The translations under genes and the position numbers were made by a program. The notes beneath the pieces are model-generated. The model ran no database searches, was not told the DNA's origin, and saw only the letters and a program-made list of their open reading frames with translations. Shown here one piece after another: positions 2,604-24,021 of a stretch of 41,120 nucleotides of DNA; position 1 is the first letter of the stretch, and each line of letters starts with the position of its first letter. The stretch covers positions 1 to 41,120 of IMG/VR virus record IMGVR_UViG_3300046001_009273; one strand, 5' to 3'. This DNA comes from a virus.

Positions 2604-2907
2604 TTTTTTCTAATTCTTTATATAAACTATCAATTTGGGAGCATTTACGGTAATCCTCTATTCTAATAAAGTATTCTAATGAAGATTTTAGTGTAGATAA
2701 ATAATTTTCTTTAGTTATTATTATATTAGCTTCTAATTGTGGTATAGCACATACCGTAAATTCTTTTTTATTATCTTTAATGGCCTGTTTCATCCCGTCT
2801 ACAACGTTTTCAAATATAGAATGTTGTATTTTAGGAGCAAAAAGGGTATCTAAAATACCCCTTGTACTATACTCCTTTAATAATATGTTAGGCAGGTGTC
2901 TCTTCAT
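2581..2907 (-). CDS. Hypothetical phage protein, 108 aa
   Basis: No domain recognised. The start is placed at MKRHLPNIL (ATG at 2907) because the longer reading from 2949 would overlap the upstream gene by over 60 bases. The chosen start overlaps by 20 bases. The protein looks helical, with two Cys and no motif. It is coupled to both neighbours by short overlaps. Confidence 0.65.
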   Translation of the reverse strand: MKRHLPNILLKEYSTRGILDTLFAPKIQHSIFENVVDGMKQAIKDNKKEFTVCAIPQLEANIIITKENYLSTLKSSLEYFIRIEDYRKCSQIDSLYKELEKNGSQPTK

Positions 2908-3313
2908 TATCAGAACTTGTTGATTGAGCTTCTCCTTCCATACTTCCACCCAATACTTTATCTTTAATAAAGGTAAATACTGAATCTAATGGGATTTGGA
3001 AGTTAGCAGCCATTTTATCAGGCGCGTCTGTGTCTCTATCAAATTCTAAACCATAGTCAACGAATTTTTTAGATACTGCTGTTGATATTGAACTTTGTAG
3101 TGAATCAACTTCTTCAGGTGTTAGATTAGTTAATACTTCTCCATTTTCATTTACAGGAAAAAATTTAACTTTAATACCTTTTTTAGTTGGGTTTTTATTT
3201 ACATCTACTACTACTTTAAAGCTTTCACCACCAATAGTAGCGTTATAGTTTAATTCACCTTCTTCTTTAAGAAATTCTTCACTTAGAAAGAAATCACGTA
3301 ATTTGTATTCCAT
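2888..3313 (-). CDS. Hypothetical acidic phage protein, 141 aa
   Basis: No recognised family. Residues 20-65 look beta-rich and residues 75-125 mixed. The C-terminal tail is Ser/Glu-rich and probably disordered (EGEAQSTSSDNEETPA). It is the first gene after the glycan cluster. An ATAAATATT element (3329-3337) lies just upstream, but no convincing -33 box accompanies it. Confidence 0.7.
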   Translation of the reverse strand: MEYKLRDFFLSEEFLKEEGELNYNATIGGESFKVVVDVNKNPTKKGIKVKFFPVNENGEVLTNLTPEEVDSLQSSISTAVSKKFVDYGLEFDRDTDAPDKMAANFQIPLDSVFTFIKDKVLGGSMEGEAQSTSSDNEETPA

Positions 3314-3335
3314 GTTGTTAATTTTGGTATAAATA

Positions 3336-4103
3336 TTAAAGATATTTTAAATTATTTAAAGGATTATGTTTAATGTTAGTCCCCCATTTATATATTGAAT
3401 AATTAAAGCATTCTTGTTCTATAAGTTGCTTTTCTTGCTGTTTCTCAGGAGTAGGAGCAGTACCTAATGATACAAAATGATAAAAACTACAATTATATGT
3501 TCTTAGCATCTTCATTCCATTTAATTGACATTTCAAGAAAAATTCCCAATCAACTGTCCATGGACCAGGGTATGTTTCATCAAACCCCCCAATTTTTAAA
3601 TAGTCTATTTTAGAGATTAAAAATGGGAATGTTGAACCTTCTTCTGTAGTTTCATTTCTCCTATTATTAATCTCATAAGCCCAAAACGCTTTCAAATCAA
3701 ACGTTTTAGGATCACGACCTAAATCCTTAATATCAAACTGTCTAAACATGCTATGAGTAGGTTCAATTTGATTTGGGGATAATACTGAATTAGATTGATA
3801 GGCCTCTAGTAAGTACTTATCCCAATTAGTAGGAAATATATTATCGTCTTGAACATGAAATACTAAATCAAATTTAGCATTACAATGACCAAAGTTCATT
3901 GCTCGTATCATCCCAACATTCTCTTCAAGATTTAGGATTTCAATATCATTAGAGTATTTATCTAATACTTCCTTATTAACATCATAGTAACCATCTACTA
4001 CAACTATAATCTGATTTTTATATAACTGTCCCGTTATAGCTGATTTAAGACATAAGTCTAATGCTTCAGGTTCTTTATAAGTTGGTATTACTACTGTTAT
4101 CAT
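3336..4103 (-). CDS. GT2-type glycosyltransferase, 255 aa
   Basis: A GT-A fold family 2 transferase: MITVVIPTYKE at the N-terminus, then ENVGMIRAMNFG (61-72) and the DXD-like metal site QDDN (85-88). The later GPWTVDWEFF resembles the ED-type acceptor region. It should transfer a sugar from a nucleotide donor; the acceptor is unknown. It is the last gene of the glycan cluster and overlaps the upstream gene by ATGA. No membrane segment, so it is probably cytosolic. Confidence 0.85.
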   Translation of the reverse strand: MITVVIPTYKEPEALDLCLKSAITGQLYKNQIIVVVDGYYDVNKEVLDKYSNDIEILNLEENVGMIRAMNFGHCNAKFDLVFHVQDDNIFPTNWDKYLLEAYQSNSVLSPNQIEPTHSMFRQFDIKDLGRDPKTFDLKAFWAYEINNRRNETTEEGSTFPFLISKIDYLKIGGFDETYPGPWTVDWEFFLKCQLNGMKMLRTYNCSFYHFVSLGTAPTPEKQQEKQLIEQECFNYSIYKWGTNIKHNPLNNLKYL

Positions 4104-4795
4104 ATGTTATTCCAATCTGTTAAAGGGGTTAGCCATGCTGTTTCTCCATGTGTTGAATACCCTGGTAATGGAGTAATTAGTAATTCATTTTGATCTCTTA
4201 GATCTAAAAACATATGAAAATCTTGTGGATAAGTCCCAGTTGTATATTTCCTTAATGTTGATTCTGTTTTTTTTAAGGTACTAACTTTAGAAGCAAATGT
4301 CATAGTAGTAGCATTAGTTATTTTCCAGTGGATTGAGTCTGTTAAGTAAACTCTGGTGTCTTCAGCTCCACCTTCGCAATATGGATTTCCCCCTTGTGAT
4401 GGAGTCATGTATTTATCGGGATGATCATAGAGTGATATAAAAGCTGGATCTAAATTAAAACCTTCCTCTAATATTTTATCAGATCCGGGTTTATGTAAAT
4501 AATCATTTTCAACAAAGTAGATTATCTCATCATCATTATATTTTAAAGCTTTATCTAAAGCTAAATTAAATGTTCCTGCTCCATGACCTATGGATACTTT
4601 TTCTATATTAACTGGGTCAATATATTTTATAATCATATTTAAAGTATTCTCACTACAGTTATCTGCTATAATTAATATATCATGAATATGGTCAAAAAAC
4701 ACATTACATAAATTTTTTAGGCAGGATTCATTATTAATATAATCAGGTTTTATTTTGTTATAACCTGCATCGGATATTCTATAAATTATTTTCAT
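4100..4795 (-). CDS. GT-A-like putative glycosyltransferase, 231 aa
   Basis: The N-terminus (MKIIYRISDAGYNK) and the central IIYFVENDYLH around residues 91-101 resemble the donor-binding strand and DXD-like site of GT-A enzymes, here END. A later PQDFHMFLDLR may form the acceptor side. Overlaps of 4 bases with both neighbours place it inside the glycan operon. Family membership is inferred from fold signs and context; the substrate is unknown. Confidence 0.6.
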   Translation of the reverse strand: MKIIYRISDAGYNKIKPDYINNESCLKNLCNVFFDHIHDILIIADNCSENTLNMIIKYIDPVNIEKVSIGHGAGTFNLALDKALKYNDDEIIYFVENDYLHKPGSDKILEEGFNLDPAFISLYDHPDKYMTPSQGGNPYCEGGAEDTRVYLTDSIHWKITNATTMTFASKVSTLKKTESTLRKYTTGTYPQDFHMFLDLRDQNELLITPLPGYSTHGETAWLTPLTDWNNI

Positions 4796-5592
4796 ATTAT
4801 AGTCATTAGTTGTTCTTTATAATGCATGTGACATATCCCTTCTATTAGTAGATTTTTATGACTACAATCATGTATGACATCATCTTTAATTATTTTGAGT
4901 AAATATAAGTATTTTTCTTCAGATATCAAATGGAATTTTGATAAATTATTTCGTTGGATACAATTTTTTAAAAAATCCTCACAACTCCATCCAGGGAGGT
5001 GTTCCCATATTTTACCATTATAATTTTCTAGGGTTTGGAGGTGATTATAAGTTTTATCTAAATATTCTTGATTATTTAAATAATCACATTTAGAAACATT
5101 TATAAAATATAAATTAGTTTGTGGATAAAAATCTTCATTTAATATTCTTACAAAATCAAAATTATATTTAACCATTCCCCCATAACCCACCCCATTTAAA
5201 TAATAAAAATCAACTTCAGGTATTTCTTTTTCAAAAAGAATATCCATTAATATAGTATCATTTGCAGATTTACATAACCAATCTATATTACTTTTTTTAC
5301 AGAAATCAAATATTAAATTATCTAAATCTGCATAACCATGATTATGACCCCTATTTACTTCATTATCTATTAACCTAACATTAGGAAAATACCTTTCCCA
5401 CATATCAATATGTCTGTTAATTAAGTTTAAATCAAATTCCTTATAATTAGTGGCTACAATAATATGTTTAAATTCCTTTAATACAGGTAAGTTATATATT
5501 AAATATTGCTCTAAAGTATCTATATCTTCTTGAGAAGAGATATAACCTATGGTACCATATACTGATTTGTTGATTAATTCTTTAATAAGCAT
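4792..5592 (-). CDS. Putative GT-A-like glycosyltransferase, 266 aa
   Basis: The pattern NRGHNHGYADLDNLIFDF followed by DWLCKSANDTILMD around residues 80-116 resembles the GT2 stretch that leads to the DXD motif, but the metal site reads SANDT rather than a clean DXD. The region after it has no strong signature. It overlaps the reductase gene upstream by 19 bases and the next transferase gene by 4. Probably a sugar-transfer enzyme or a degenerate relative. Confidence 0.5.
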   Translation of the reverse strand: MLIKELINKSVYGTIGYISSQEDIDTLEQYLIYNLPVLKEFKHIIVATNYKEFDLNLINRHIDMWERYFPNVRLIDNEVNRGHNHGYADLDNLIFDFCKKSNIDWLCKSANDTILMDILFEKEIPEVDFYYLNGVGYGGMVKYNFDFVRILNEDFYPQTNLYFINVSKCDYLNNQEYLDKTYNHLQTLENYNGKIWEHLPGWSCEDFLKNCIQRNNLSKFHLISEEKYLYLLKIIKDDVIHDCSHKNLLIEGICHMHYKEQLMTII

Positions 5593-6293
5593 TGTTTTAA
5601 TTTATTAATATTCATAGTTGTATTTGAGGGAACATTTTTAGGTTTAAAAGCAGCATTAACATTAGGATTTGTTTTTTCAGCTAACTCATACATGGTTTTA
5701 ACTTCAGTACCTACATTATATAACCCTTTAGCATCTGCTGTTATTAAAGCAATAATCCAAGTAGCTATACAGTCTACATAGTCAAAATTACCTATTTGAT
5801 CTACCCAGGCTTTATCATAAGGAAAAGGTTTTGATTTATGAGTACCTCTACAAATTAAATAATTATTTGATTTTAATTCAATGTAAGCATCAGCTAACAA
5901 TTTTGTATATGAATACCAATTATTACCATGAATAGGAATATCATTCTCTGAAGCATTATTTATAGAGTTAGTATAAACATAATCAGATGATATATGTACT
6001 AATTTAATATTATGTATATTACAAAAATCAACTAGATTTGCTACTCCTTTATAATTAACATCCCAGTGGTTATTAGGGTCATTAGAATAAGTATTAGTAT
6101 TTGCTATGCAATTTATTATAACATCATATTTTGTAGTAAAAACAACCCCTTCATAACTCTCTATAAAATACTTATAAAACAATTCAGGTTGTGTAATATC
6201 AAAACCATCTTGCTTTCTAGATATCATATCCCATCCCATTATTTGATGAATATCACTTCCTAGTAATCCATCACCTAAAATAACTACTTTCAT
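5574..6293 (-). CDS. RmlD-like NAD(P)-dependent 4-keto-sugar reductase, 239 aa
   Basis: An extended short-chain dehydrogenase: Rossmann GDGLLG at residues 7-12, SSDYVYT at about 102-108 and the YxxxK pair Y127/K131. This is the dTDP-4-dehydrorhamnose reductase (RmlD/RfbD) type that reduces a nucleotide-linked 4-keto sugar. It is shorter than the usual about 290-300 residues. It lies two genes after the PLP dehydrase, so the two may act on the same nucleotide sugar. The exact substrate cannot be read from sequence. Confidence 0.8.
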   Translation of the reverse strand: MKVVILGDGLLGSDIHQIMGWDMISRKQDGFDITQPELFYKYFIESYEGVVFTTKYDVIINCIANTNTYSNDPNNHWDVNYKGVANLVDFCNIHNIKLVHISSDYVYTNSINNASENDIPIHGNNWYSYTKLLADAYIELKSNNYLICRGTHKSKPFPYDKAWVDQIGNFDYVDCIATWIIALITADAKGLYNVGTEVKTMYELAEKTNPNVNAAFKPKNVPSNTTMNINKLKQCLLKN

Positions 6294-6493
6294 TCTGGAA
6301 ATATTTCAATGCAAAGAACATTTTTATCATTTATTAAAATCATTCTACCATCTTTAGTTAATAATTTAGTAAATTGACCTTGCTTTACTGTTGTTGATTC
6401 TATATTCTCAAAAGTACGTTTATCACCATATATAAAATGGATAATTTGAGTAACGTACTTACCTTGTGATTTTATACTAGATTGTAAATCCAT
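6290..6493 (-). CDS. Small hypothetical protein in glycan operon, 67 aa
   Basis: No recognised domain; a short beta-rich protein with the core KLLTKDGRMILINDKNV. It lies between the PLP dehydrase gene (1 base away) and the RmlD-like gene (ATGA overlap), so it is co-translated with two sugar-modifying enzymes. The spacing favours a real gene, but function is unknown. Confidence 0.65.
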   Translation of the reverse strand: MDLQSSIKSQGKYVTQIIHFIYGDKRTFENIESTTVKQGQFTKLLTKDGRMILINDKNVLCIEIFPE

Positions 6494-6494
6494 T

Positions 6495-7784
6495 TTATTT
6501 ATTAAATTTTTTAACTACTTCTTCAACATAATTAAATACTTCTTCAGTGTAATGTGGTGCAGCACCTATAAAAAATACTTTATCTAACACTTTATTAGCT
6601 TCAGGAAATTCTTTATAATCACCTAAATGTTTATAACCAGGATGCATTAATATGTTACCGGCAAAATAATTTCTAGTTTGGATTAGATTCTCTTCTAAAT
6701 GCTGAACTAGTTTATGTTTTAAACCTGGATCATCACATATAAATGGAGTTCCAAACCAATTAGTACTTGCTTTATCTAATGAATGAATAGCTCTAAGTCC
6801 TGGTATGTTATTAGTAAAGATTTTGTCTAATCTTTCTTTAGAATTTTTTCTATTGGTATCAATTTCATCTAGTTTTTCTAATTGTACTAAACCAATTGCA
6901 CCTTGTAAATCTAGTGGTTTTAAATTATAACCCATGTTATCAAAGACATATTTATGATCAATATCATTTTCATAACCTTCTAAATGTCTACCAAATCTAC
7001 ATCCACAACTACCTTGCTGCAGTAAATTAGCAGCACCTACACAGTAACAAGCTCTACCCCACCATGAATAACTCATGATTAACTTTTTAAGTTCCTCATC
7101 ATTGGTGCAAATCATACCACCTTCACCTGTTGACATGTGATGTGATGGATAAAATGAATTTGAATAAGCAACATAGTACTCATTTAAGTATTTATCCCCC
7201 CATTTAGAACCTAAACTATCACAATTATCACCAACTAATAATATATTATGTTTTTGAGTTATTTCTACTAACCTATCAAAATCAGGAGCATTACCCAACA
7301 CAGGTGATACAAAGATTGCTTTAGTACGAGATGTAATTTTGGCTTCAATTAAATTTAAATCAAAATTTAAAGTATCCCATTCAATATCAATGAATACAGG
7401 TTTTAATCTATTTTGATCGATTACTGATATAGTGGTTGCAAAACCCACAGGTGATACTATAATTTCATCTCCATCAGTCCAATTGAATCGTTTTTTCAAG
7501 GCAGCAATCAATACTAGGTTAGCAGATGAACCTGAATTAACCATATGAGAGTATTTGGTTTTAAATTTTTTACCAAATTTCATTTCAAAACGATTAACTT
7601 TAGCTCCAGTTGTAACCCAAGCTCCATTTAAAAATGTATCTATAGCAGCTTCAATTTCTTTATTATCCCAATAGGGACCTGAATACCATACAGTACTTTC
7701 ACCAGGTGTAAATTTCTTACTGTTAAGTAAATAAGGTGGTAAATGATTACCTACTAGTTTTTGAATGTCTTCTAATTGAATCAT
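6495..7784 (-). CDS. E1/RfbH-type PLP-[2Fe-2S] sugar 3-dehydrase, 429 aa
   Basis: A DegT/DnrJ/EryC1/StrS-fold protein with the PLP region SGSSANL (84-90) and D186. The usual Schiff-base Lys is replaced by His in FYPSHHMSTGEGG (H215/H216), as in CDP-4-keto-6-deoxyglucose-3-dehydrase (E1, RfbH) and ColD. The cysteines C188, C246, C248 and C260 give C-x57-C-x1-C-x11-C. Known E1 enzymes use C-x57-C-x1-C-x7-C to bind a [2Fe-2S] cluster. This points to C-3 deoxygenation of a nucleotide 4-keto-6-deoxyhexose on the way to a 3,6-dideoxysugar. The partner reductase (E3/RfbI) is not in the window. Confidence 0.88.
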   Translation of the reverse strand: MIQLEDIQKLVGNHLPPYLLNSKKFTPGESTVWYSGPYWDNKEIEAAIDTFLNGAWVTTGAKVNRFEMKFGKKFKTKYSHMVNSGSSANLVLIAALKKRFNWTDGDEIIVSPVGFATTISVIDQNRLKPVFIDIEWDTLNFDLNLIEAKITSRTKAIFVSPVLGNAPDFDRLVEITQKHNILLVGDNCDSLGSKWGDKYLNEYYVAYSNSFYPSHHMSTGEGGMICTNDEELKKLIMSYSWWGRACYCVGAANLLQQGSCGCRFGRHLEGYENDIDHKYVFDNMGYNLKPLDLQGAIGLVQLEKLDEIDTNRKNSKERLDKIFTNNIPGLRAIHSLDKASTNWFGTPFICDDPGLKHKLVQHLEENLIQTRNYFAGNILMHPGYKHLGDYKEFPEANKVLDKVFFIGAAPHYTEEVFNYVEEVVKKFNK

Positions 7785-8650
7785 ATTTTTGATAATATAT
7801 AGTTAGCGATATTTTTTGTTGTTAAGTGATTTTTAGTATAATTAAATAACTCGTTTAATATAAGAAAGTATTTTGTGGAATCAAAATTTTCTGCTAGATA
7901 TTTTGCATCTAAGAGTAATTCTTTAGGTAAGTTAGCTAAAGTGTTTTTAGGACAATCTTCCAATCCCACAAAATATGGGACACAATTATTACCTAGTATT
8001 TCATAATGTCTCATACAATCCCATCCTGCTTTTTTCATTGTCACCCCATAAAATGACTTTTGATAGTCTTCATAATAAGGTTGTTCAGTTTTAAAAATAT
8101 AAGTCTCAGGTTGGCCTGGAATGCAAGTAGCATATTCTTGGGTTTTAGGAGTAGTTGTATCTGATAGTTTACAAGTTGGTATTCCAAATGTTATAGGTAA
8201 TAGGTTAGGATGATCTGTGATTAATTCCCTTTTAAAATACAAATGTTTCTCATATAGGGGATCTAAATCAGATTCATCATTACCATCAATTAAAATTACT
8301 TTATTGGGTGGGTAGTATTTAGAGACTAAATCATAATAATTTTTGCAACGTTTAATAGCACCATAAATTATTAAATCATAGTATTGATCCTTAATTTTTT
8401 CTTCAATATTAGTTCTATCTATATTGTTATCCCCAATTAGCCAAAAAGCAGTCATACCACCCCATAAGTGTTGAGGATTAATAGTATTTTCATATTCTTT
8501 ATAGAGTGATACAATTTGAGTACTATCAACAACATCATCACCAAATAATTCTCTTAAACCATAGAATACAAGATCGTTTTGATAGTCATTTATAAATCCC
8601 CCACTGGCTTTTGCTATGTCAATGTGATTGGTTATATAGAGTATTTTCAT
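7781..8650 (-). CDS. Unassigned glycan-operon protein, glycosyltransferase-like, 289 aa
   Basis: The N-terminus MKILYITNHIDIA resembles a GT-B first strand. A C-terminal segment, KKAGWDCMRHYEILGNNCVP around residues 202-221, looks like the donor-binding part of GT-B enzymes where the chain picks up a nucleotide sugar. No standard EX7E motif is present. It overlaps the upstream and downstream genes by 4 bases each. Probably a divergent glycosyltransferase, but not securely assigned. Confidence 0.5.
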   Translation of the reverse strand: MKILYITNHIDIAKASGGFINDYQNDLVFYGLRELFGDDVVDSTQIVSLYKEYENTINPQHLWGGMTAFWLIGDNNIDRTNIEEKIKDQYYDLIIYGAIKRCKNYYDLVSKYYPPNKVILIDGNDESDLDPLYEKHLYFKRELITDHPNLLPITFGIPTCKLSDTTTPKTQEYATCIPGQPETYIFKTEQPYYEDYQKSFYGVTMKKAGWDCMRHYEILGNNCVPYFVGLEDCPKNTLANLPKELLLDAKYLAENFDSTKYFLILNELFNYTKNHLTTKNIANYILSKI

Positions 8651-9567
8651 TTTAAAAATACATTATTAAATTGTTTCATTACTTTTTTAGGAGTAAATTC
8701 TTGATAACAATTCCATTCTTTTTGGGTAATATCATTATGAGTTATACCATCTAATATACTATATAATTCATTATAATTTGAATAATAAATACCTTTATCT
8801 TGAAGTATTTCAATATGATTTCGTTCTGGGGATAATTTGTAAGTTATGATAGGTTTGTTTTTTGATGAGAACTCAGCTATAGCTAACCCAAAAGTTTCAC
8901 CTCTTTCTCGGGCATGAATCATAATATCACAAGTATTTATAAAAGCTGCTTTCTGCTCTTGATTGATTGTTCCTTCAATAAAAATAATATTAGGCACATC
9001 ACAAAATGAATCTTGATTCATAAATAAAAATATAATATCATCTCGTTTATGGGCAATATTAATTACTGCTTGTTTTGCAAATGGAATTTCAAAATTATTA
9101 CCCCCATACCAACCTACTACTAATTGATCCTTTATATTTAAAAATTCTTTAAAATTTTCTTTAATTTCAGGTAAATTTATCATATGAGGGACATAGGGTT
9201 GACCTTTCCCATGAGACTCAGCCAACCATTTAGAGATATATGCATAGACATCTCCATGTGGATTATGGGAAGGGAAAACAGCATGAACTAAATTTTTAGC
9301 ATTTGGATGAAAATTTCCATCATTAAATCCATATTTTAAAGAATAAAAATAATCACCTTGAATTTTTTGAATATCTAAAAATGAGTTTAGTATATGAGTT
9401 TCAAAACGTTTATTAAATTTTTTATAACTTTTTAACTCTGCTGTATTTAAAGAAACAATAATTGATTTATTCCCTAATATGGTTTTATTATAATGAGCAT
9501 AATCATATGTTGCTATACTAGTACCCCTTTCATTTAAGTTAGGGTCAAAAAATATTATTTCTTTCAT
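8647..9567 (-). CDS. GT4-like glycosyltransferase, 306 aa
   Basis: The C-terminal half shows the GT-B family 4 pattern: IMIHARERGETFGLAIAEF with an EX7E-type pair, then KPIITYK, typical of retaining transferases such as WaaG or PimA types. The N-terminal domain is short and divergent, and the whole protein is shorter than the usual 350-400 residues. It sits in the middle of the glycan operon with ATGA overlaps on both sides. Confidence 0.75.
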   Translation of the reverse strand: MKEIIFFDPNLNERGTSIATYDYAHYNKTILGNKSIIVSLNTAELKSYKKFNKRFETHILNSFLDIQKIQGDYFYSLKYGFNDGNFHPNAKNLVHAVFPSHNPHGDVYAYISKWLAESHGKGQPYVPHMINLPEIKENFKEFLNIKDQLVVGWYGGNNFEIPFAKQAVINIAHKRDDIIFLFMNQDSFCDVPNIIFIEGTINQEQKAAFINTCDIMIHARERGETFGLAIAEFSSKNKPIITYKLSPERNHIEILQDKGIYYSNYNELYSILDGITHNDITQKEWNCYQEFTPKKVMKQFNNVFLK

Positions 9568-10298
9568 ACTTCAACTAATGGTAAAATATCTTTTAAAATT
9601 TCAATTTTATCTATATTATTAATGGTACAAATATGATCACAGGGATATTCATTGTTTATTTTAAACATTCTGTAACCTAGTGATTTAATATAATCTATTA
9701 ATTGAACCTCAGTAATATCAAATTTAGCTAATTGATGAGGTTCTATTTCAATAAACAAATCGGGTTGATTGGTATTAAGTAATTTTTCAGCACCTTTAAG
9801 AGTAAATAATTCATACCCTTGAACATCCATTTTAATAAAATTTACTTTATCAAATTCAAAATCATCTAAAGCATAAACATTTACTTCTTCACCTCCTTCT
9901 CCAATAGAAGTATCTCCTATATTTACCCAAGAATCTTCATAATTTACGGGCCTCATTGTAGTCTTTGTTTGAGAACCATCTCCTAAAGCTACTTGATAAG
10001 TTAAAGAATTAAAGATATTATTTAAAATAAGATTTCCATTTAATTGTTGTTGGATAATCCTTTGTGGCTCAAATGCTACTAATAAACCTTGATTATTAAG
10101 TCTTTTTCCCATAAGAACAGCATTATAACCAAAATTTGCCCCACAATCCACAACGGTATCTCCAGGAGAAATAAAATGTTCAATAACAGTTTTAAAATGT
10201 GGTTCCCAAAGTTTATCTTGTTTAATATGTTGAGATATAGCATCATTTGGGAAAATAATAAAATCACCATCAGGATTGGAAAATATTTCTGATATCAT
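9564..10298 (-). CDS. FkbM-family SAM methyltransferase, 244 aa
   Basis: SAM-binding motif I GDTVVDCGANFGYN at 46-59, an acidic residue after AFEP about 20 residues later, and the family signature IKMDVQGYELFTLKGAE near 155-171. FkbM proteins O-methylate hydroxyl groups, often on sugars. Its position between glycosyltransferase genes suggests it caps or decorates the glycan. The start overlaps the upstream GT2 gene by 4 bases. Confidence 0.85.
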   Translation of the reverse strand: MISEIFSNPDGDFIIFPNDAISQHIKQDKLWEPHFKTVIEHFISPGDTVVDCGANFGYNAVLMGKRLNNQGLLVAFEPQRIIQQQLNGNLILNNIFNSLTYQVALGDGSQTKTTMRPVNYEDSWVNIGDTSIGEGGEEVNVYALDDFEFDKVNFIKMDVQGYELFTLKGAEKLLNTNQPDLFIEIEPHQLAKFDITEVQLIDYIKSLGYRMFKINNEYPCDHICTINNIDKIEILKDILPLVEV

Positions 10299-10912
10299 AA
10301 TAAATCGTATAAATTATTTTGTCTTTCTTGCCTTTCGATTTGTTTTGGGTGATATAAACAATAATCTTCCTCCAAGGGTAAAGTAGCCCAAGTATTATGA
10401 CCCATTAATACCTCATGTACTTTATTGCCCCAATTAATTTTTGGTGAGTTTTGAAGTATACGAGGTTGTAAATCAGGGAAATTAACCCATCCTTTCTCAT
10501 TTACATTCCATCTCCATTTATTGATATGTTCTTGAGTTAATCCTTCTACAGTATTAATTCTAGGGAGTAAAAATACATCAATAGTTGGATTATCTTGTAA
10601 AATTAAGTGTAAATTTTGTAGAAACTCAATTTTAATATACTCATCTGCATCTAATTGCATTATCCATTCTCCAGTACAATGTTTTTTAAGGTTGTTTTTA
10701 AATGCTGAGAAATTACCTTTTAATGGAAATTCTATAACACTTATTCTACCATAAAATTGATCTAGTACTTGATATACTTCAGGTGTAGTATTACCTTGAT
10801 CACATTGAACTACTATTTCATCCTCGTCTCTTTTATTAGTGACGAGAATGCTTAGTAATCTCATTAATTCTTCATGTTCATTACATGTAGGTATAGCGTA
10901 AGAAATTCTCAT
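10295..10912 (-). CDS. GT2-type glycosyltransferase, 205 aa
   Basis: Start placed at MRISYAIPTCNE (ATG at 10912), which clears the upstream gene's stop by 1 base; the longer reading would overlap it. GT-A features: IPTCNEHEELMRLL at the N-terminus and the DXD-like LDADEY at 87-92, followed by W and H residues of the acceptor side. The length is short for a GT2 enzyme but complete for the catalytic core. Donor and acceptor unknown. Confidence 0.85.
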   Translation of the reverse strand: MRISYAIPTCNEHEELMRLLSILVTNKRDEDEIVVQCDQGNTTPEVYQVLDQFYGRISVIEFPLKGNFSAFKNNLKKHCTGEWIMQLDADEYIKIEFLQNLHLILQDNPTIDVFLLPRINTVEGLTQEHINKWRWNVNEKGWVNFPDLQPRILQNSPKINWGNKVHEVLMGHNTWATLPLEEDYCLYHPKQIERQERQNNLYDLL

Positions 10913-10913
10913 A

Positions 10914-11369
10914 TTATTCTGAAAAGAAAGAAATATAGTCGAGTGCTTCAATAAAGTCACTTTGTGAGTAATTCTTCAAAGATTTAATATCAGTTTTATG
11001 GGTATAATATTCTTCAGTACCAGGTATTTTAAATTTACCTTTTTCTTCTTCGTTTACTTCGATTGCTTTTACACCTGCCCACTGCCAATCATATTTGTTT
11101 TTACCATTGGCAAATACCGTTCCTTTATCCTGAATATTAATAGTAATTGGGTACCATACTCGTTTTTCTGAGTCAGTATTTTTGAGATCTTTGTAGAGTT
11201 CAGGTAAAGTTTCTTCGTATGTTTCAAAATCAAATTCACCTTCTTTCATTAGATCATTTGTTTGAAATCCACATCCAAAACAAAAATAATTGTTTTTTAT
11301 TTCGTTTACAGGAGTGACATAACATGCGTCCGAAGAACATTTTGGACAAATATCTAATTTATCTTTCAT
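10914..11369 (-). CDS. Zinc-ribbon hypothetical protein, 151 aa
   Basis: A zinc ribbon is formed by CPKC near residues 8-11 and CFGC near 31-34. The remaining about 110 residues are beta-rich with several Trp (WYPITINI, YDWQWAGVKAIEV). It lies inside the glycan cluster but has no sugar-enzyme signature; similar small Zn-ribbon proteins are common in T4-like phages. Function unknown. Confidence 0.7.
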   Translation of the reverse strand: MKDKLDICPKCSSDACYVTPVNEIKNNYFCFGCGFQTNDLMKEGEFDFETYEETLPELYKDLKNTDSEKRVWYPITINIQDKGTVFANGKNKYDWQWAGVKAIEVNEEEKGKFKIPGTEEYYTHKTDIKSLKNYSQSDFIEALDYISFFSE

Positions 11370-11373
11370 TTTA

Positions 11374-11916
11374 TTATATTTTTTTAGTTATGTACCAAGC
11401 ACTATCATCTTCAGAGTACCCTTTATTAAATTCAAACTCACTACTATTTAATTTTCTAAACATGTTTTGAAAATAACTTAATCTATCATCTTCAAGACCG
11501 TCTCCATCATAGGGTTCAAATTTTATACCCTCACTATCAGTACTATTTAAAAAAGGAATTATCTCATTATTCATTACTTTCTGTAAAAATATTGCTTTAG
11601 GTAATCGATTTGGATCATTATCATCCCACTTAAACTGCTCTTCAGGAGTAGGTGCATTTAGATTTCCAAATTTTAATTCCCAAAAATTATCACTTGGATC
11701 ATACACTAACCTAACTTCAAAAGGAGAACTATCGTTAGTTCCTTTAAATTCTTTTGGTTTGAATATTATAATATTACCTTGGTTTAATTTTCTTACCCCC
11801 CATTGAGATATTTCAGTAAGAAGGTATTGTTTTGTAGCTTCTTTCTTTTTTGTTAAGTTTGAATATTTACCTAATGCCTGGTAAACCTCAGTTGCTAGTA
11901 TTGTTAAGGATCTCAT
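11374..11916 (-). CDS. Hypothetical phage protein, 180 aa
   Basis: No domain recognised. Mixed alpha/beta, with an acidic central part (FKWDDNDPNRLP) and the ending SAWYITKKI. It is separated by 4 bases from the next gene and adjoins the GT4 gene upstream, so it is within the same transcription unit. Function unknown. Confidence 0.65.
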   Translation of the reverse strand: MRSLTILATEVYQALGKYSNLTKKKEATKQYLLTEISQWGVRKLNQGNIIIFKPKEFKGTNDSSPFEVRLVYDPSDNFWELKFGNLNAPTPEEQFKWDDNDPNRLPKAIFLQKVMNNEIIPFLNSTDSEGIKFEPYDGDGLEDDRLSYFQNMFRKLNSSEFEFNKGYSEDDSAWYITKKI

Positions 11917-13224
11917 TTATTCTATTTTTTTTAAAGTAGGTAACTCAATTTTTTTTAGTTGAGGTAATTTTAATTGTACTTGTTTTGGAAATTCAGGTAC
12001 ATTAGTAGTTAATATTGTATCTAGTTTTTTTTGCATCTTTTCAAATGAGAAATTAGTTTTACAATAATGAGCTAAACGTTTACCATTATCTTGATATTTT
12101 TTATAATTTTCAAAATAATCTTTTAATAACCCTCCAGCAAATCCATAATCTACAGTAAACCATTGAGACCCTTCAATTAACATATCAGGTACTTGAGCAG
12201 ATGGATGAATATTAGTTAAAGTACCAGGTATTAATGAAGTGAATTCAGGATTTAAAAAATCTAAATGACCACTCCAATTTGAAGCAATAACAGGTTTTTT
12301 AGTTTGAGTAAATTCAAGTAATGGTCTACCAAATCCTTCACCTTTAGTGAAACTAACCATTGCTTTAATTTTAGAATGGTTATATAGTTGATTCATTTCA
12401 TCATCTGAAATTTCACCGTGAAATAAGTAGATGTTAGGTAAGTTTTTAGTAGGCATAGATTGTCTTATAGTATCTATTTTTTTCAAGATATTATCTCTAT
12501 CTACAATACTAGTAGGGCCTGACATAGTTTTTAATATAAGAGCAGGTTTCTTAGATTTGTTTTTAAATGCTTCTAAAAACATTCTAACTAAACCACCTAC
12601 ATCTTTTCTGTCTTGACCCCAATCTCCTTGCAACCAATGACCAGCAAATAGAAAAGCAAAATCTTCTTTTACATTATCTAGAGCATTTTTAATCTCAGAA
12701 TCTTTAGGTAAAGGTGATTGAAAGTATTTAGTAATATCTACTCCTTCAAATAATACTTCAATAGGAGCAGTTAATTCTACTGTACCAACAACTTGTTTAG
12801 TTTTTTCGTCTTGTTTTTGAAATTTACTTTCTTGAAATACTTTTTTAGCATGTTCTGAAGATACTAAATTTAAACTCATTCTGTTCATACCTTCAATCCA
12901 TTGTGGAGCACAGATTGTAGTTTCAATACCTGCAGTAATCCCAATATTATATTTTCCAACTGTTTGAAATTCATTAGGTACTGTAATTTGAGCCCAAATA
13001 TCAGGTTGTTGAGTCATTTGACCTTGTATAATATGAGGTTGTAAGAATCCCCATTCTTCTTGATGATGTTCAATAAATCCCCAAGGTGTATTTCCCCAAC
13101 GTTGTGGTAATATTTTAACATCGTACTTATCAAGATTAATTAACGCTTTAACTAAATCACGTGAGCGTGCTCCATAGCCAGCATAGCAATCTATGGGGCA
13201 TGATATAACGAAAGTATTTTTCAT
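11917..13224 (-). CDS. GT4 glycosyltransferase, 435 aa
   Basis: The N-terminal GT-B domain begins with a beta strand and Gly-rich loop (MKNTFVISCPIDCYAGYGARS). The C-terminal domain holds FTKGEGFGRPLLEF with the EX7E pair, followed by KPVIASNWSGHLDFL, diagnostic of family 4. Length is normal. The C-terminus carries a short repeat-like tail of PQLKKIELP then PTLKKIE, possibly a flexible contact segment. An HNH gene lies directly upstream. Confidence 0.85.
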   Translation of the reverse strand: MKNTFVISCPIDCYAGYGARSRDLVKALINLDKYDVKILPQRWGNTPWGFIEHHQEEWGFLQPHIIQGQMTQQPDIWAQITVPNEFQTVGKYNIGITAGIETTICAPQWIEGMNRMSLNLVSSEHAKKVFQESKFQKQDEKTKQVVGTVELTAPIEVLFEGVDITKYFQSPLPKDSEIKNALDNVKEDFAFLFAGHWLQGDWGQDRKDVGGLVRMFLEAFKNKSKKPALILKTMSGPTSIVDRDNILKKIDTIRQSMPTKNLPNIYLFHGEISDDEMNQLYNHSKIKAMVSFTKGEGFGRPLLEFTQTKKPVIASNWSGHLDFLNPEFTSLIPGTLTNIHPSAQVPDMLIEGSQWFTVDYGFAGGLLKDYFENYKKYQDNGKRLAHYCKTNFSFEKMQKKLDTILTTNVPEFPKQVQLKLPQLKKIELPTLKKIE

Positions 13225-13247
13225 TTATTTTTTATTTAATATAATAA

Positions 13248-13919
13248 TTATTTTTTGTATTTCCAAATAAAACCTGCAGCAGTTTTTGATCTACCTTTTA
13301 AAGCTGATTTTATATCTCCTCCTATTTGTTTTTGAGCTTCTGATATACTAGACCATTCTTTAATAAAGTTCTCATGTTTATCAAATTGGAGTATAGTTTT
13401 ATTAAGTCCCCTATCCCAAGTGATTTCTCGACCTTTTAATGCTTTACTTCTATTAATACTTTTAACTTTAGTAGTCCCATTTTTAATTCTAGTATCCCAT
13501 ATTTTTTGCCCTATCTTAGATTTTTCTTCTTGGGTTTTATCTTCCCAAATCCCTAACATAACTTTACTCTTTTTTAAACAAGTTTCAATTGAATGTTTTT
13601 TACCTGCTAAAAATTGAGAATATTCAGTTTTAAGTCTTTCATAAACTCTAGAACCTATAACATAATGATTTTCTTTAATTCTTTGTTTACCAATAGACAT
13701 TAAAAACAAAGCATGTTTTAGTTTGTTTTCTTTAGGATGAATCTCACAAAGTAACATATGACATAAGAAATGTTCTCTTGCTGTTAATTCTACTAGGTTT
13801 TCTTTATCATTACTTCCTCCTAGACATTTAGGGATAATATGATGTTTTTCAGTATAGCCTTCTAAGGTTCTACTTTGAGCCCTTTCTATTAATTGGTTGT
13901 AAATTCTTGTATATTCCAT
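13248..13919 (-). CDS. HNH homing endonuclease with C-terminal NUMOD-like DNA-binding module, 223 aa
   Basis: H26-H27 in YTEKHHIIPKC, then NLVELTAREHF, form an HNH nuclease core like that of free-standing phage endonucleases. The C-terminus (FIKEWSSISEAQKQIGGDIKSAL) matches a NUMOD1-type DNA-binding repeat. It is a clear paralogue of the HNH gene at 33734-34453 over the first about 75 residues. It sits between two intact GT4 genes without splitting either. A promoter and hairpin lie just upstream. Confidence 0.85.
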   Translation of the reverse strand: MEYTRIYNQLIERAQSRTLEGYTEKHHIIPKCLGGSNDKENLVELTAREHFLCHMLLCEIHPKENKLKHALFLMSIGKQRIKENHYVIGSRVYERLKTEYSQFLAGKKHSIETCLKKSKVMLGIWEDKTQEEKSKIGQKIWDTRIKNGTTKVKSINRSKALKGREITWDRGLNKTILQFDKHENFIKEWSSISEAQKQIGGDIKSALKGRSKTAAGFIWKYKK

Positions 13920-13921
13920 TA

Positions 13922-13953
13922 GGCACGTATTTATGATAATAAATATATGTGCC
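13922..13953 (-). other. Hairpin upstream of HNH gene
   Basis: GGCAC pairs with GTGCC, and inside it TATTTAT pairs with ATAAATA around a 4-base loop. It overlaps the -7 region of the promoter and lies just before the HNH ATG. It may fold in read-through transcripts and limit translation of the endonuclease, as is known for free-standing endonuclease genes in T4. Confidence 0.5.
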
Positions 13954-13968
13954 CAACGGAAAACTCAA
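13938..13968 (-). promoter_or_regulatory. Promoter TTG-N20-TATTTATT
   Basis: TTG at 13968-13966, 20 bases, then TATTTATT at 13945-13938, 18 bases before the ATG of the HNH gene. Spacing matches the other promoters in the window. Confidence 0.5.
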
Positions 13969-13977
13969 TATTATTTA

Positions 13978-15402
13978 CTAATATATAAGAGGATGAACTA
14001 ATTCTAAGGGCTCCAAATCTTCTATCATAAAGAATTCAAATGATTTTTTAGGTGTAAATTTTTCTAAAGTTAAATCAATATCTTTGATCACATTATTACA
14101 CATCATACGAGCAGACATTCCTGATTCATCTGAAGTTACCCATTCTCTAGCGGCTTTACCATTCTCTTCTCTTTCTTCAGGAGATAATTCATAAGCTTGT
14201 TGAATAGCATTAGCTAAATCTCTAAAATCTAATCTATCATCCCAAATATAAGGAGTTGTAGGTGAACCCACTAATGACATATTATTTGGGAATACTGGTA
14301 TAGCCCATTTACCATGTTTTTTATAAGTACCGAAATGATTTGAAGGGAATTCAGGTGTAAAATCAATCCATTTACCATCTTCATCTTCAAATCTCATTTG
14401 ATCTTGCATACCACCTGTTACATTAGCAATAACCATTCTACCTGCCATCATAGCTTCAGTTAACGCTAATCCCCATCCTTCATTTGAAGAAGGTAATACA
14501 GTCACATCAGCAATATTGTATAGATTATTTAGTTCAGCTGTATCAATTCTTTGATCTGAAAAGAATATATTTGATTTTGGGCCAAATAATAATGTTTTAA
14601 CTGCATCTAAATCTGTACCATTTCCATCTACAACTTGTGTATGTAATACTAAAGCAATTTTATCTGCTTTTTCTTTAGGTAATGAATCTAAAAACATTTT
14701 GTGAGCAGCCATTAAATCACTAACACATTTTCTTCTAATGTTTCTTGAATTAAAAAACACTACAAAATCAAATTCTTTATCACCAAATAATTTTTTCTTA
14801 GTATTTTGTAATTGTGATTTATCTTCTATAGGGAAAAATTGTTTTTCATTAATTCCATGAGGTACATAAGAGATAAGTTTACCATCTGCTCTTTTACCTA
14901 AAACCATTTCATTGATGTTTTTAGTTTGTTTAGATATTGCTAACAATGTATCACATGACTCATAAAAAGCTCTATTGTATAGAGGAGCAGGCAAGTCATC
15001 CCAAATGTTTAAATAAATCATTGGAATTTGCTTTCTTATTTCATTCTCAATAGCAAATAACCAATCATAATATCTTGGATCTGTAAAAAACATTAAACCA
15101 TCAGGTTTTTCATTTTTCAACATATATCTTATTAAATCAGCATTACCATATCCATTATTTGGGTAAATAACTACATCTGTATCTGTAAGTTCAGTTTCAG
15201 TATTAGTGGCTTGAGATAAATCTAATCTCTGTCCATGTTCAGGATGATTAATAGCAGCTCCTATTATTACCCAATTGTAGTGGTGGGCAGTCCCTAAAAC
15301 TATTTCTCGAGCCATTGTAGCAATACCCGAGTGCATTCTAATGTCATCACAAATAAATAATATTTTTTTCCTTTGCTCTTTAGGTAGATAACCTTCTTTC
15401 AT
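13978..15402 (-). CDS. GT4 glycosyltransferase, 474 aa
   Basis: Full-length GT-B enzyme: N-terminal KKILFICDDIRMHSG with a Gly loop, and C-terminal SSNEGWGLALTEAMMAG with the EX7E pair followed by VIANVTGGMQDQM. Retaining family 4 transferase, likely cytosolic. It is the second gene behind the promoter at 15632-15663, after the small RHH-like gene, and so near the head of the glycan operon. Confidence 0.88.
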   Translation of the reverse strand: MKEGYLPKEQRKKILFICDDIRMHSGIATMAREIVLGTAHHYNWVIIGAAINHPEHGQRLDLSQATNTETELTDTDVVIYPNNGYGNADLIRYMLKNEKPDGLMFFTDPRYYDWLFAIENEIRKQIPMIYLNIWDDLPAPLYNRAFYESCDTLLAISKQTKNINEMVLGKRADGKLISYVPHGINEKQFFPIEDKSQLQNTKKKLFGDKEFDFVVFFNSRNIRRKCVSDLMAAHKMFLDSLPKEKADKIALVLHTQVVDGNGTDLDAVKTLLFGPKSNIFFSDQRIDTAELNNLYNIADVTVLPSSNEGWGLALTEAMMAGRMVIANVTGGMQDQMRFEDEDGKWIDFTPEFPSNHFGTYKKHGKWAIPVFPNNMSLVGSPTTPYIWDDRLDFRDLANAIQQAYELSPEEREENGKAAREWVTSDESGMSARMMCNNVIKDIDLTLEKFTPKKSFEFFMIEDLEPLELVHPLIY

Positions 15403-15413: not shown

Positions 15414-15602
15414 TTATTTTTCTAATTCTAGATTCATATGATTGTGAACTAATTTTTGGAACTCAGGGTCCGTTAAATACAGATGCATACATCTGTCTGC
15501 TAATTTTTGTAGAGAGAATTTGGTTTTAATTGTCTCTATTTTAAATGCTTCAAAGATATCTTTATCTACCTTCACACTTGTTAATTGTTGATTTGTACTC
15601 AT
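15414..15602 (-). CDS. Ribbon-helix-helix-like small protein, 62 aa
   Basis: Residues about 7-40 (LTSVKVDKDIFEAFKIETI then TKFSLQKLADRCMHLYL) fit the strand-helix-helix pattern of MetJ/Arc-type DNA-binding proteins. It is the first gene of the transcription unit that continues into the glycosyltransferases, so it could autoregulate the operon. The assignment rests on pattern only. Confidence 0.6.
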   Translation of the reverse strand: MSTNQQLTSVKVDKDIFEAFKIETIKTKFSLQKLADRCMHLYLTDPEFQKLVHNHMNLELEK

Positions 15603-15631: not shown

Positions 15632-15663
15632 TATAAATATACTAATATCTAATAAAATGCAAA
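15632..15663 (-). promoter_or_regulatory. Promoter TTTG-N20-TATTTATA heading the glycan operon
   Basis: TTTG at 15663-15660 lies inside the last codons of the nuclease gene. It is followed after 20 bases by TATTTATA at 15639-15632, 29 bases before the ATG of the RHH-like gene. Confidence 0.65.
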
Positions 15664-18509: not shown

Positions 18510-20150
18510 TTACATCATCCCTTGCATAGGATTGATTTCTTCTTTTTTATCTTCTTTTTTCTCGTAAATTACAGATTCGGTTGTTAGGATTGTACCTGCA
18601 ACTGAAGCTGCATTTTCTAAAGCAATACGAGTTACTTTTTTAGGATCGATAATACCTGCTTTTTTAAAGTCCATTGTTGATAAGTCTTTATAGTTAAGAC
18701 CATCCCAATTGCTTCCGTTTTCTGAATCTGTTAGTTTAGAACCTAAGTATTGAACTTCTACAATATCATGACCTGCATTAGTTAGAATTTTTTGGAATGG
18801 AGAAGCAACTGCTCTATAAACGATTTTCTTACCTAAAACAAAATCATGAGATCCTTCAAAAGTAATAGATTTTCTAGCATATAATAAAGCTGTTCCACCA
18901 CCAATTACAATCCCTTCTTCTAAAGCGGCTTTTGTAGCAAATAAAGCATCTTCTACTCTATCTTTTTTCTCTTTGATTTCTAATTCACTATTACCACCTA
19001 CATTAATAATAGCTACACCACCAATCATTTTACCTAAACGCTCTTGTAATTTTTCTTTTTCAAATGGTGAACCTGCGTCATCAATTTGTTTTTTAATTTC
19101 TTGAGCTCTGGTTTCAATTGCTTCTTCTGATCCTTTACCATCAACAATTGTTGTTTTATCTTTACCAATTGTAGCGGTACGAGAATTACCTAGACATTGT
19201 TTTAAGGTGTTAACATCAATTTTATCTAGTTTATGACCTTTATCTTTAGACAAAACTTGACCACCTGTAATAGTAGCTAAATCCTCTAAAGCCATTGTTC
19301 TACGATCTCCAAATTCAGGTGCTTTAACTGCTACTACATTTACAATACCTCTCATTTTATTAACGATAGACACGGCTAATGCTTCTCCATCAACGTCTTC
19401 TGCTACTACTAATAGTGCTCGTTTTTCAGTGTTGGCTAATGTTAAAGCTGGTACTAATTCGTTTACTGAAGTGATTCTACCATTGTATATTAAGATATAA
19501 GGATTATCTAATATAGCAGTCATAGTATTGTTATCGGTTACAAAATATGGTGATTTATAACCTCTATCAAATTGCATACCTTCAACAATTTCAAGTGAAG
19601 TTTCACCTGATTTTGATTCCTCGATAGCTACAATTCCATCTCTACCTACTTTTTCTAAAGCAGTAGCAATTAAATTACCAATTTCTTCATCATTGTTACC
19701 TGAAATAGTAGCAACTTCTTTGATTTGTTGGTTATCGGAAATGTCTTCTGTTAGATTATTAAGAGCTGTTTTAAGTTCTTCTACAGCTGCATCAATACCT
19801 TTTTTAATTTCAACTGCGTTTTGTCCTGCATTAACATGCTTTAAACCTTCTTCCAAGATAGCGTATGTTAATAAGGTACTTGTAGTTGTACCATCACCTA
19901 CTTCATTAGCTGATTTAATTGATACTTTTTGTACTAATTCTGCTCCTGTTGATTCAATTGGATCTTCTAATTCTTTAAAGGCTTTAGCGACAGTTACACC
20001 ATCTTTGGTTACTGTTAATTGACCATAATCTCCTTTAATTAATACTGTTCTACCTGCGGGTCCTAAGGTAGAGGATACACTATCATTAAGTTTTTTAACT
20101 CCTGATAGTAATTTTGATTTTAATTCTGTTCCGAATGCTGTTTCTGTCAT
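18510..20150 (-). CDS. groEL: GroEL-type chaperonin, 546 aa
   Basis: Full-length group I chaperonin. Signatures: STLGPAGRTVLI, KDGVTVAKAF, the ATP site GDGTTTSTLL, and the C-terminal ALEEGIVIGGGTALL. The C-terminus ends NPMQGMM, a short variant of the usual GGM tail. The sequence departs from normal bacterial GroEL in the N-terminal region (MTETAFGTELKSKLL), as expected for a phage copy. It should form a folding chamber with the GroES encoded 2 bases upstream. Confidence 0.95.
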   Translation of the reverse strand: MTETAFGTELKSKLLSGVKKLNDSVSSTLGPAGRTVLIKGDYGQLTVTKDGVTVAKAFKELEDPIESTGAELVQKVSIKSANEVGDGTTTSTLLTYAILEEGLKHVNAGQNAVEIKKGIDAAVEELKTALNNLTEDISDNQQIKEVATISGNNDEEIGNLIATALEKVGRDGIVAIEESKSGETSLEIVEGMQFDRGYKSPYFVTDNNTMTAILDNPYILIYNGRITSVNELVPALTLANTEKRALLVVAEDVDGEALAVSIVNKMRGIVNVVAVKAPEFGDRRTMALEDLATITGGQVLSKDKGHKLDKIDVNTLKQCLGNSRTATIGKDKTTIVDGKGSEEAIETRAQEIKKQIDDAGSPFEKEKLQERLGKMIGGVAIINVGGNSELEIKEKKDRVEDALFATKAALEEGIVIGGGTALLYARKSITFEGSHDFVLGKKIVYRAVASPFQKILTNAGHDIVEVQYLGSKLTDSENGSNWDGLNYKDLSTMDFKKAGIIDPKKVTRIALENAASVAGTILTTESVIYEKKEDKKEEINPMQGMM

Positions 20151-20152
20151 GA

Positions 20153-20446
20153 TTAGTCTTCTATAACTGATAAAATATCATTTTGGTTAGCGATTAAGTA
20201 ATCTTCTCCTTCTAATTTAACTTTATGAACTCCCATTGGTGGTAATACAACTTTCATTCCTGTTTTTAAGTCCATAGGAGCAAATTCCCCTTTACTGTAA
20301 TTATAAACTTGGGATACTGCTAATATTTCTCCCATAATTGGTTTTTCATTTCCCATATCAGGAATGATAATGTTACCCACCATCATTTCTGATTCTTCCA
20401 TGGGTTTTAGAATAACATTGCCGTTTCTCGGCTTTAATTTACTCAT
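20153..20446 (-). CDS. groES: GroES-type co-chaperonin, 97 aa
   Basis: Compact GroES fold: KPRNGNVILKPMEESEMMVG at the N-terminus, a mobile-loop region, then KTGMKVVLPPMGVHKVKLEG and the final YLIANQNDILSVIED. Standard length. It overlaps the preceding 98-residue gene by 4 bases and is 2 bases from groEL, so the three form one operon. Confidence 0.92.
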   Translation of the reverse strand: MSKLKPRNGNVILKPMEESEMMVGNIIIPDMGNEKPIMGEILAVSQVYNYSKGEFAPMDLKTGMKVVLPPMGVHKVKLEGEDYLIANQNDILSVIED

Positions 20447-20739
20447 AGTGTAATTGAATTGGTTAAATTGTTAAAATTAATTTCTACTGCTTTAGCATAC
20501 TCTTTAATAGTATATTTAGAGGTATCTAAAGCTTGTTGTTTTGAAATAGAAAATAATGCTGAGGAGAGTTTAGTGAAATAACCATAAGGTTTTTCTGATT
20601 GAGTTGTTGGGTCAATTAGAACCACATTGTAACAACCTTCATCAATAATAATCTTATAGTCTCCTAAAGCAGGATCCTCAATCATTGATCTTTTCTTAAT
20701 TGTGCCTTTTTGTCGGCCTTTAAAATTTACATTTGCCAT
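20443..20739 (-). CDS. Unknown first gene of the chaperonin operon, 98 aa
   Basis: Not recognised. The N-terminus is basic (MANVNFKGRQKGTIKKRS), then comes a beta-rich middle (YKIIIDEGCYNVVLIDP) and a helical C-terminal third. It sits directly behind a strong promoter and overlaps groES by 4 bases, so it is made together with the chaperonins. It could be a co-chaperone, a client-specific adaptor or just a cargo gene; nothing in the sequence decides this. Confidence 0.75.
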   Translation of the reverse strand: MANVNFKGRQKGTIKKRSMIEDPALGDYKIIIDEGCYNVVLIDPTTQSEKPYGYFTKLSSALFSISKQQALDTSKYTIKEYAKAVEINFNNLTNSITL

Positions 20740-20760
20740 AACTTTTTTTATTTGTTTCGT

Positions 20761-20792
20761 ATAATATACGAAAAAATTTTTGGGTATCCAAA
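20761..20792 (-). promoter_or_regulatory. Promoter TTTG-N20-TATATTAT of the chaperonin operon
   Basis: TTTG at 20792-20789 and TATATTAT at 20768-20761, spacer 20. The -7 box lies in a 17-base inverted repeat, TTCGTATAATATACGAA (20756-20772), a possible operator. Confidence 0.7.
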
Positions 20793-20800
20793 CAAAACTT

Positions 20801-20819
20801 AACCTAAGGGCGTAAGGTT
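20801..20819 (-). terminator. Weak terminator-like hairpin after hsp20
   Basis: AACCT and AGGTT flank a 9-base centre just after the Hsp20 stop codon, followed by TTAAGTTTTG. The stem is only 5 bp, so termination is likely partial. Confidence 0.35.
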
Positions 20820-20820
20820 A

Positions 20821-21228
20821 TTATTTTATTTTTATAGTTTTGGGTTTTGCTTTTTCAGCAATAGGGATAGAAATTTCTAGCAAACCATTTTCTAGTTTTG
20901 CTAACGCTAAAGATAAGTCATATTTAGCTGAAATTTTGTAACCTAAACTAAAGGATTTTTTAGATAATCCTCTATGAATTGTTCCAGGATGAAGTTCTTT
21001 TTCTTCTTCTGGTTTATCATAACTGATTTTTAGAATATCATCTTCGATATCTACTGTAACATCGTCTTTAGTAAGACCAGTACATGCTACTTCAAAGTAA
21101 AGTCCTGCAGCGTCGGAAAAGATATTTAAGGGGTGAGGTTGTTTTGTGGTTGCTGCTGAACCGTATCCACTTGTTGGGTAAAAGAAATTGTGGAATAGAA
21201 TGTCAAATTCATTAAAGTTTGTACTCAT
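20821..21228 (-). CDS. Hsp20/alpha-crystallin small heat-shock protein, 135 aa
   Basis: The alpha-crystallin domain runs from about residue 30 (PLNIFSDAAGLYFEVACTGL) to the AxLxNGLL hallmark (LAKLENGLLEISIP), and the C-terminal TIKIK supplies an I-x-I anchor. Such ATP-independent holdases occur in T4-like phages, especially cyanophages. It has its own promoter (21290-21320) and precedes the groES/groEL unit. Confidence 0.93.
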   Translation of the reverse strand: MSTNFNEFDILFHNFFYPTSGYGSAATTKQPHPLNIFSDAAGLYFEVACTGLTKDDVTVDIEDDILKISYDKPEEEKELHPGTIHRGLSKKSFSLGYKISAKYDLSLALAKLENGLLEISIPIAEKAKPKTIKIK

Positions 21229-22960: not shown

Positions 22961-22961
22961 A

Positions 22962-24001: not shown

Positions 24002-24021
24002 AATTAAATTCCTTATATGGT

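Follow-up and report, generated by a model that had tools for sequence, protein, structure and literature searches.

What does a phage do with a long run of sugar genes placed among its replication genes? The question is raised by a 41 kb viral contig (IMG/VR record IMGVR_UViG_3300046001_009273, positions 1 to 41,120; this whole stretch is referred to here as the window), in which 14 potential glycan-locus genes and one homing-endonuclease gene occupy positions 3336-15402 of the minus strand. The locus consists of a fixed core, made up of the glycosyltransferases (GTs) GT4-A, GT4-B and GT2-C together with a zinc-ribbon-like protein, followed by a hypervariable cassette. The block carries its own late-type motif, and it is probable that its enzymes are made late in infection and glycosylate virion proteins in the cytosol.

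Core and cassette in related loci

A nucleotide search of the phage collection returned one short match, and the comparisons are therefore protein-based. They cover 80 related viral loci, some of which are incomplete at their ends, so that gene counts are lower bounds. Across these loci a recurring order is found: clamp loader, two small genes, a PD-(D/E)XK gene (78/80 loci), s62, GT4-A, GT4-B, the zinc-ribbon gene and GT2-C. The direction of open reading frames (ORFs) is nearly uniform (1638 vs 31), and from three genes past GT4-B onward the median gene is common to 2 to 9 loci. GT4-B has relatives in at least 587 stretches in IMG/VR. With the core conserved across 80 loci, chance is excluded; mis-assembly was likewise rejected, the same sequence being present in a second contig (G001). 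The features of the locus, from the proposed promoter onwards, are these:

15632-15639, minus strand: late-type motif TATTTATA, proposed promoter of the block, in the gap between the PD-(D/E)XK gene and s62, 37 bases upstream of the s62 start
15414-15602, minus strand: s62, a small conserved protein that opens the block; kept in 73/80 loci
13978-15402, minus strand: GT4-A, core glycosyltransferase; Pfam PF00534, 1.3e-13; 79/80 loci
13248-13919, minus strand: HNH homing-endonuclease-like insertion separating GT4-A and GT4-B; weak HNH and NUMOD-like matches
11917-13224, minus strand: GT4-B, core glycosyltransferase; Pfam PF00534, 1.6e-8; 79/80 loci
11374-11916, minus strand: rare protein without a family match, found elsewhere only in contigs G001 and L003
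10914-11369, minus strand: zinc-ribbon-like protein, conserved core member; weak PF01807 match; 69/80 loci
10295-10960, minus strand: GT2-C, core glycosyltransferase; Pfam PF00535, 1.8e-12; 61/80 loci
9564-10298, minus strand: FkbM methyltransferase, cassette; Pfam PF05050, 1.9e-19
8647-9567, minus strand: GT4-like glycosyltransferase, cassette; PF00534, 1.7e-5 (24.9 vs a cut-off of 26.4 bits); PHROG 2170, 6.9e-6
7781-8650, minus strand: predicted GT-B-fold glycosyltransferase, cassette; AlphaFold pLDDT 95.4, Foldseek
6495-7784, minus strand: E1-type 3-dehydrase (DegT family), cassette; Pfam DegT, 6.5e-72; PDB 3bcx, 6.2e-73
6290-6493, minus strand: small 67-aa protein, often beside E1 or another aminotransferase-type gene
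5574-6293, minus strand: RmlD-like reductase, partner of E1; PF04321, 1.4e-15; PDB 2ggs
4792-5592, minus strand: predicted GT-A-fold glycosyltransferase, cassette; AlphaFold pLDDT 90.5, Foldseek
4100-4795, minus strand: probable GT2, cassette; PF00535, 0.0012, below cut-off; 29% identical to a sugar-cluster homologue of Microcystis phage Mel-JY01
3336-4103, minus strand: GT2, final gene of the cassette; PF00535, 2.7e-15; 45% identical to a Mel-JY01 homologue
3328-3335, minus strand: second late-type motif, upstream of the first gene after the cassette (2888-3313)

The original prediction had described a glycan-biosynthesis cluster running in one direction with 4-base overlaps, and this is upheld for gene order, strand and seven such overlaps (4100-4103, 4792-4795, 6290-6293, 7781-7784, 8647-8650, 9564-9567 and 10295-10298). 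Its count of at least five GTs (three GT4, two GT2) agrees with the Pfam matches, the gene at 8647-9567 falling just below the GT4 cut-off but having a PHROG match, and the further GT-like proteins that it proposed are upheld by the predicted GT-A and GT-B enzymes. In total the locus would encode eight GTs: family models recognise five, a sixth is the weak GT2 at 4100-4795, and the remaining two are identified from their predicted fold. These last two, at 4792-5592 and 7781-8650, have no family match and were modelled using relatives from other contigs; Foldseek matches of the former are GT-A enzymes, and those of the latter, whose family extends to at least 145 viral stretches, are PimB', EXT1/EXT2 and chlorovirus A075L. 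The closest solved relative of GT4-A and GT4-B alike is chlorovirus B736L, although the relation is remote. A family search with s62 returned no match. Because the GTG start of GT2-C makes it run 47 bases into the preceding gene, translation may in fact begin further in. The HNH endonuclease at 13248-13919, which is found at this site in only three loci and has its own late-type motif at 13945, is outside the glycan function. Like it, the genes at 10914-11369, 11374-11916 and 6290-6493 are either absent from the original prediction or not sugar genes.

The core is also present in named phages. In Flavobacterium phage vB_FspM_immuto (Immutovirus; hereafter immuto) it runs from gp181 onward in the same order, both GT4 proteins being about 60% identical, and it is found in Mel-JY01 and, diverged, in Rhodothermus phage RM378. 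These three phages and seven of the nine long contigs searched carry a T4-type Gp23 capsid gene, which places the window phage in the T4-like group; its host is likely to be a relative of Flavobacterium, judging from immuto and the low G+C content. Sugar genes follow the core in both immuto and the window, but the immuto cassette holds another set of aminotransferase, methyltransferase and epimerase genes, and the immuto locus is annotated only as separate glycosyltransferases. GT4-A of Mel-JY01 (L046:18007-19498) is annotated as two consecutive ORFs, and is thus split or frameshifted in that record.

Cassette content was tallied over the 25 commonest Pfam families, which include SDR epimerases, GDP-mannose dehydratases, FkbM and other methyltransferases, NeuB, RmlC, nucleotidyltransferases, TPP enzymes, GT2, GT10 and GT61. 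In the window, the RmlD-like reductase, E1-like dehydrase and FkbM methyltransferase of the original prediction are all borne out, by the Pfam scores listed above and, for E1, by the retention of its histidine and four cysteines. The top PDB match of the DegT protein, 3bcx, is CDP-6-deoxy-L-threo-D-glycero-4-hexulose-3-dehydrase (E 6.2e-73), and columns His220, Cys193, Cys251, Cys253 and Cys261 (3bcx numbering) are invariant in 20/20 phage copies. In E1 enzymes His220 is the catalytic base, replacing the PLP lysine, and the four cysteines are the Fe-S ligands. In 12 other contigs, among them phages of 123 and 347 kb, an RmlD-like gene comes either straight after E1 or after the 67-aa gene. Neither a 4,6-dehydratase nor an E3-type reductase was found among the window proteins scanned, and host enzymes may serve; GDP-mannose-dehydratase-like ORFs were spotted by eye close to E1 in G003 and G008. 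Acting together, E1 and its RmlD-like partner could convert a host NDP-4-keto-6-deoxyhexose to a 3,6-dideoxyhexose, and the genes of the cluster fit a complex glycan carrying a deoxy sugar and a methyl group.

At the DNA level E1 is 83-91% identical to the copies in G005-G007, whose GT4-A is 63-79% identical to that of the window; cassette genes are thus exchanged between phages. The E1 and RmlD-like pair is also present in L010, L012 and L015, contigs without the GT4 core, one of them a 347 kb phage contig, and so acts as a mobile two-gene module. Outside the locus, a phosphoribosyl-ATP-pyrophosphohydrolase-like (MazG-type) gene at 26087-26626 is 85-90% identical between phages with polymerases about 41% identical (G005), which is another sign of gene exchange or of strong constraint. 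A scan of GTDB genomes with peptide patterns of phage E1 found no relative with the patterns used.

The late-type motif and the timing of expression

That the cluster lies inside a replication region, as originally proposed, holds for its position but not for the block as a unit, since a late-type motif stands in front of the block itself. This motif, TATTTATW, is found within 60 bases upstream of 9/20 virion and packaging genes of immuto, whose genome is complete, vs 1/22 early-region genes (p 0.003), the gene classes being the analyst's assignment by annotation and position. A second motif precedes 15/22 early-region genes vs 0/20 virion and packaging genes (p 2e-6). Upstream of s62 the late-type motif is present in 44/73 loci, against 4.3 expected from shuffles, in loci that share kinship, so that motif p values overstate independence. 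Here it always lies past the stop of the preceding gene, and it is also present at this place in immuto. Among related loci it is almost absent upstream of GT4-A, GT4-B, the zinc-ribbon gene, GT2-C, PD-(D/E)XK, the clamp loader and GroEL, and folE, dpdA and queC of immuto are without it. The block thus sits among replication genes yet looks like a late unit, the motif being a candidate late promoter. The view that a gene in the replication region must be early was set aside once the motif had been found.

The other intergenic copies in the window stand before homing endonucleases or before the gene that follows the cassette. Five of the seven intergenic copies (at 28082, 24036, 13945, 34586 and 290) precede homing-endonuclease-like genes, which suggests that these genes may also be expressed late.

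The acceptor of the glycan

Which molecule receives the sugars was left by the original prediction as three unranked targets: virion, host surface and DNA bases. Part of the answer comes from what the cassettes lack. No polytopic protein (at least four hydrophobic segments) is found among 370 cassette ORFs; in a control region, the O16/colanic region of E. coli K-12, 4/17 proteins have at least five segments, and these are two flippases, the polymerase and the initiating transferase. Flippase, polymerase and lipid-carrier transferase thus appear to be missing from the cassettes, as judged by hydropathy rather than by Pfam. The window cluster likewise has neither the membrane flippase GtrA nor the membrane-bound GTs of gtrABC serotype conversion, none of its proteins exceeding a 19-residue hydropathy maximum of 1.4. 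The acceptor should therefore be reachable from the cytosol, which leaves virion proteins, DNA and any lipid-linked intermediate that is already present.

Of the three targets the virion is favoured, because of the late-type motif, the absence of polytopic proteins among the cassette ORFs and a layout that recalls the capsid glycans of chloroviruses, the core being fixed and the tail hypervariable. The remote kinship of both core GT4 proteins with chlorovirus B736L, the placing of the related S-B43 E1 in a sugar cluster beside tail-fibre genes, and the action of mycobacteriophage GTs on virion proteins point the same way. From the motif at 15632-15639, a unit of s62, GT4-A, GT4-B, the zinc-ribbon gene and GT2-C would be expressed, followed by the cassette. 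In the cytosol, the three core GTs would assemble a shared core glycan on a virion protein, to be lengthened and capped by the cassette enzymes: the host-made NDP-4-keto-6-deoxyhexose would be converted by E1 with its RmlD-like partner, five further GTs would add sugars and FkbM would methylate. Outer sugars would vary between phages as cassette genes are swapped and the core stays, and the benefit may be a changed recognition of the phage particle. We infer both the virion protein as acceptor and the identities of the sugars. Several points weigh against virion glycosylation. In immuto, 11/20 virion-type genes are without the late-type motif (some are internal to units), and the motif is a consensus match; no virion glycan of this phage group appears in the data used; the block adjoins replication genes; and the 7-deazaguanine gene QueD is present in 11/11 long core-bearing contigs and in immuto.

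The last two points also speak for a glycan on phage DNA, in which a hydroxymethylated or 7-deazaguanine-derived base would be the substrate of the core GTs and would be elaborated by the cassette against restriction, a reading that is considered unlikely. The window has homologues of FolE, QueE and QueD at 28112-30486. They make up a 7-deazaguanine pathway, and bases of this kind may therefore be present in the phage DNA; a secondary account also mentions viral GTs that use diverse glycans to hypermodify DNA (Pyle 2024, as cited in PMC12619734). However, the complete genomes of Mel-JY01 and RM378 have the GT4 pair without QueD or a PF00303 thymidylate synthase/hydroxymethylase, and eight GTs with a hypervariable cassette go beyond known DNA glycans. 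The window's thymidylate synthase is apparently split, with its N-terminal part at 34616-35341, its C-terminal part at 32923-33507 and an HNH-type endonuclease at 33734-34453 between them, as in an intron. An exon of this gene reads FNIASY, which we take to be of the dUMP type rather than the dCMP hydroxymethylase type. More specifically, that the core GTs put an oligosaccharide on 7-deazaguanine bases, with the cassette varying the glycan strain by strain, is highly improbable. The alpha and beta DNA glucosyltransferases of T4 are also GTs near the replication genes of a T4-like phage, but they require hydroxymethylcytosine, a requirement that the GT4 pair lacks in the two complete relatives, and they are located behind middle promoters (PMC13216743) instead of a late-type motif. 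The presence of the GT4 pair in genomes without QueD or PF00303, together with the promoters of the T4 enzymes, thus weakens DNA bases as the target.

Alteration of a host surface glycan during infection, blocking other phages or releasing progeny, would accord with the O-antigen-like gene content of the cassettes, and comparable variable sugar clusters known in T4-like cyanophages are read in this way (PMC7824862). This too is rather improbable for the present locus: the target is weakened because export and lipid-carrier genes (flippase, polymerase, initiating lipid-carrier transferase, GtrA/GtrC-type membrane protein) were not found in the 370 cassette ORFs, and late-type expression would leave little time for rebuilding a surface. 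Alternatively, most of the cassette might be passenger DNA that homing endonucleases and recombination carry from place to place, without a fixed function past the core GTs; genes do turn over fast in it, and homing endonucleases lie in and around the block. Against this, the active residues of E1 are invariant across the phage copies, E1 and the RmlD-like reductase are kept together in unrelated phages, and sugar-nucleotide, methyl- and glycosyltransfer enzymes dominate the cassettes, which makes the passenger explanation very doubtful.

Known systems and the wider setting

Virion glycosylation by phage or viral enzymes has partial precedents. Chloroviruses use their own cytosolic enzymes, GTs and a methyltransferase, to glycosylate their capsid protein (Vp54); the core of the glycan is conserved and its outer sugars vary (PMC7826918). 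Virus-made cytosolic glycosylation with this layout is the likeness to the present locus; these are eukaryotic giant viruses, however, only remotely related, with an established acceptor, whereas that of the window is proposed from genes. In mycobacteriophages, according to a secondary account (Freeman 2023, as cited in PMC12619734), capsid and tail-tube proteins receive sugars from phage GTs. Mycobacteriophages are unrelated to the window phage, although both have phage-encoded GTs. To our knowledge their virion glycosylation needs many fewer GTs and lacks a variable cassette for sugar synthesis. In one lineage of Bacteroidota jumbo phages, GTs are core genes (PMC12619734). Clusters of the P-SSM2 type and that of Synechococcus phage S-B43 likewise contain GTs, epimerases and methyltransferases, and differ from one related T4-like phage to the next. 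The sugar cluster of S-B43, which adjoins tail-fibre genes, encodes an E1 that is 54% identical; the conserved core of the window lies next to the clamp loader and is preceded by a late-type motif of its own, an arrangement not described for cyanophage clusters in the parts of that literature consulted. A literature search combining FkbM and DegT with phage found nothing. What seems to be new here is the combination: three core GTs that are conserved and stand behind a late-type motif of their own, joined to a cassette that can be exchanged and has no polytopic membrane proteins. A limited literature search found no description of it.

Elsewhere in the window, the family B DNA polymerase (22025-25790) consists of two ORFs, with an HNH endonuclease gene (23225-24001) and a further small ORF lying between them. 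GroEL, GroES and Hsp20 lie at 18510-21228 between the clamp and clamp-loader genes, and GroEL/GroES are retained in about half of the related loci. A phytanoyl-CoA-dioxygenase-family (2OG-Fe) protein is encoded at 35932-36570.

Variable sugar clusters of phages have so far mostly been read as host-surface modifiers or as unspecified auxiliary genes. Cultured immuto has the same core, which makes the prediction of a virion coat testable with an isolated phage and its host. If the prediction is true, hundreds of uncultured aquatic phages would wear strain-specific sugar coats, like the capsids of chloroviruses.

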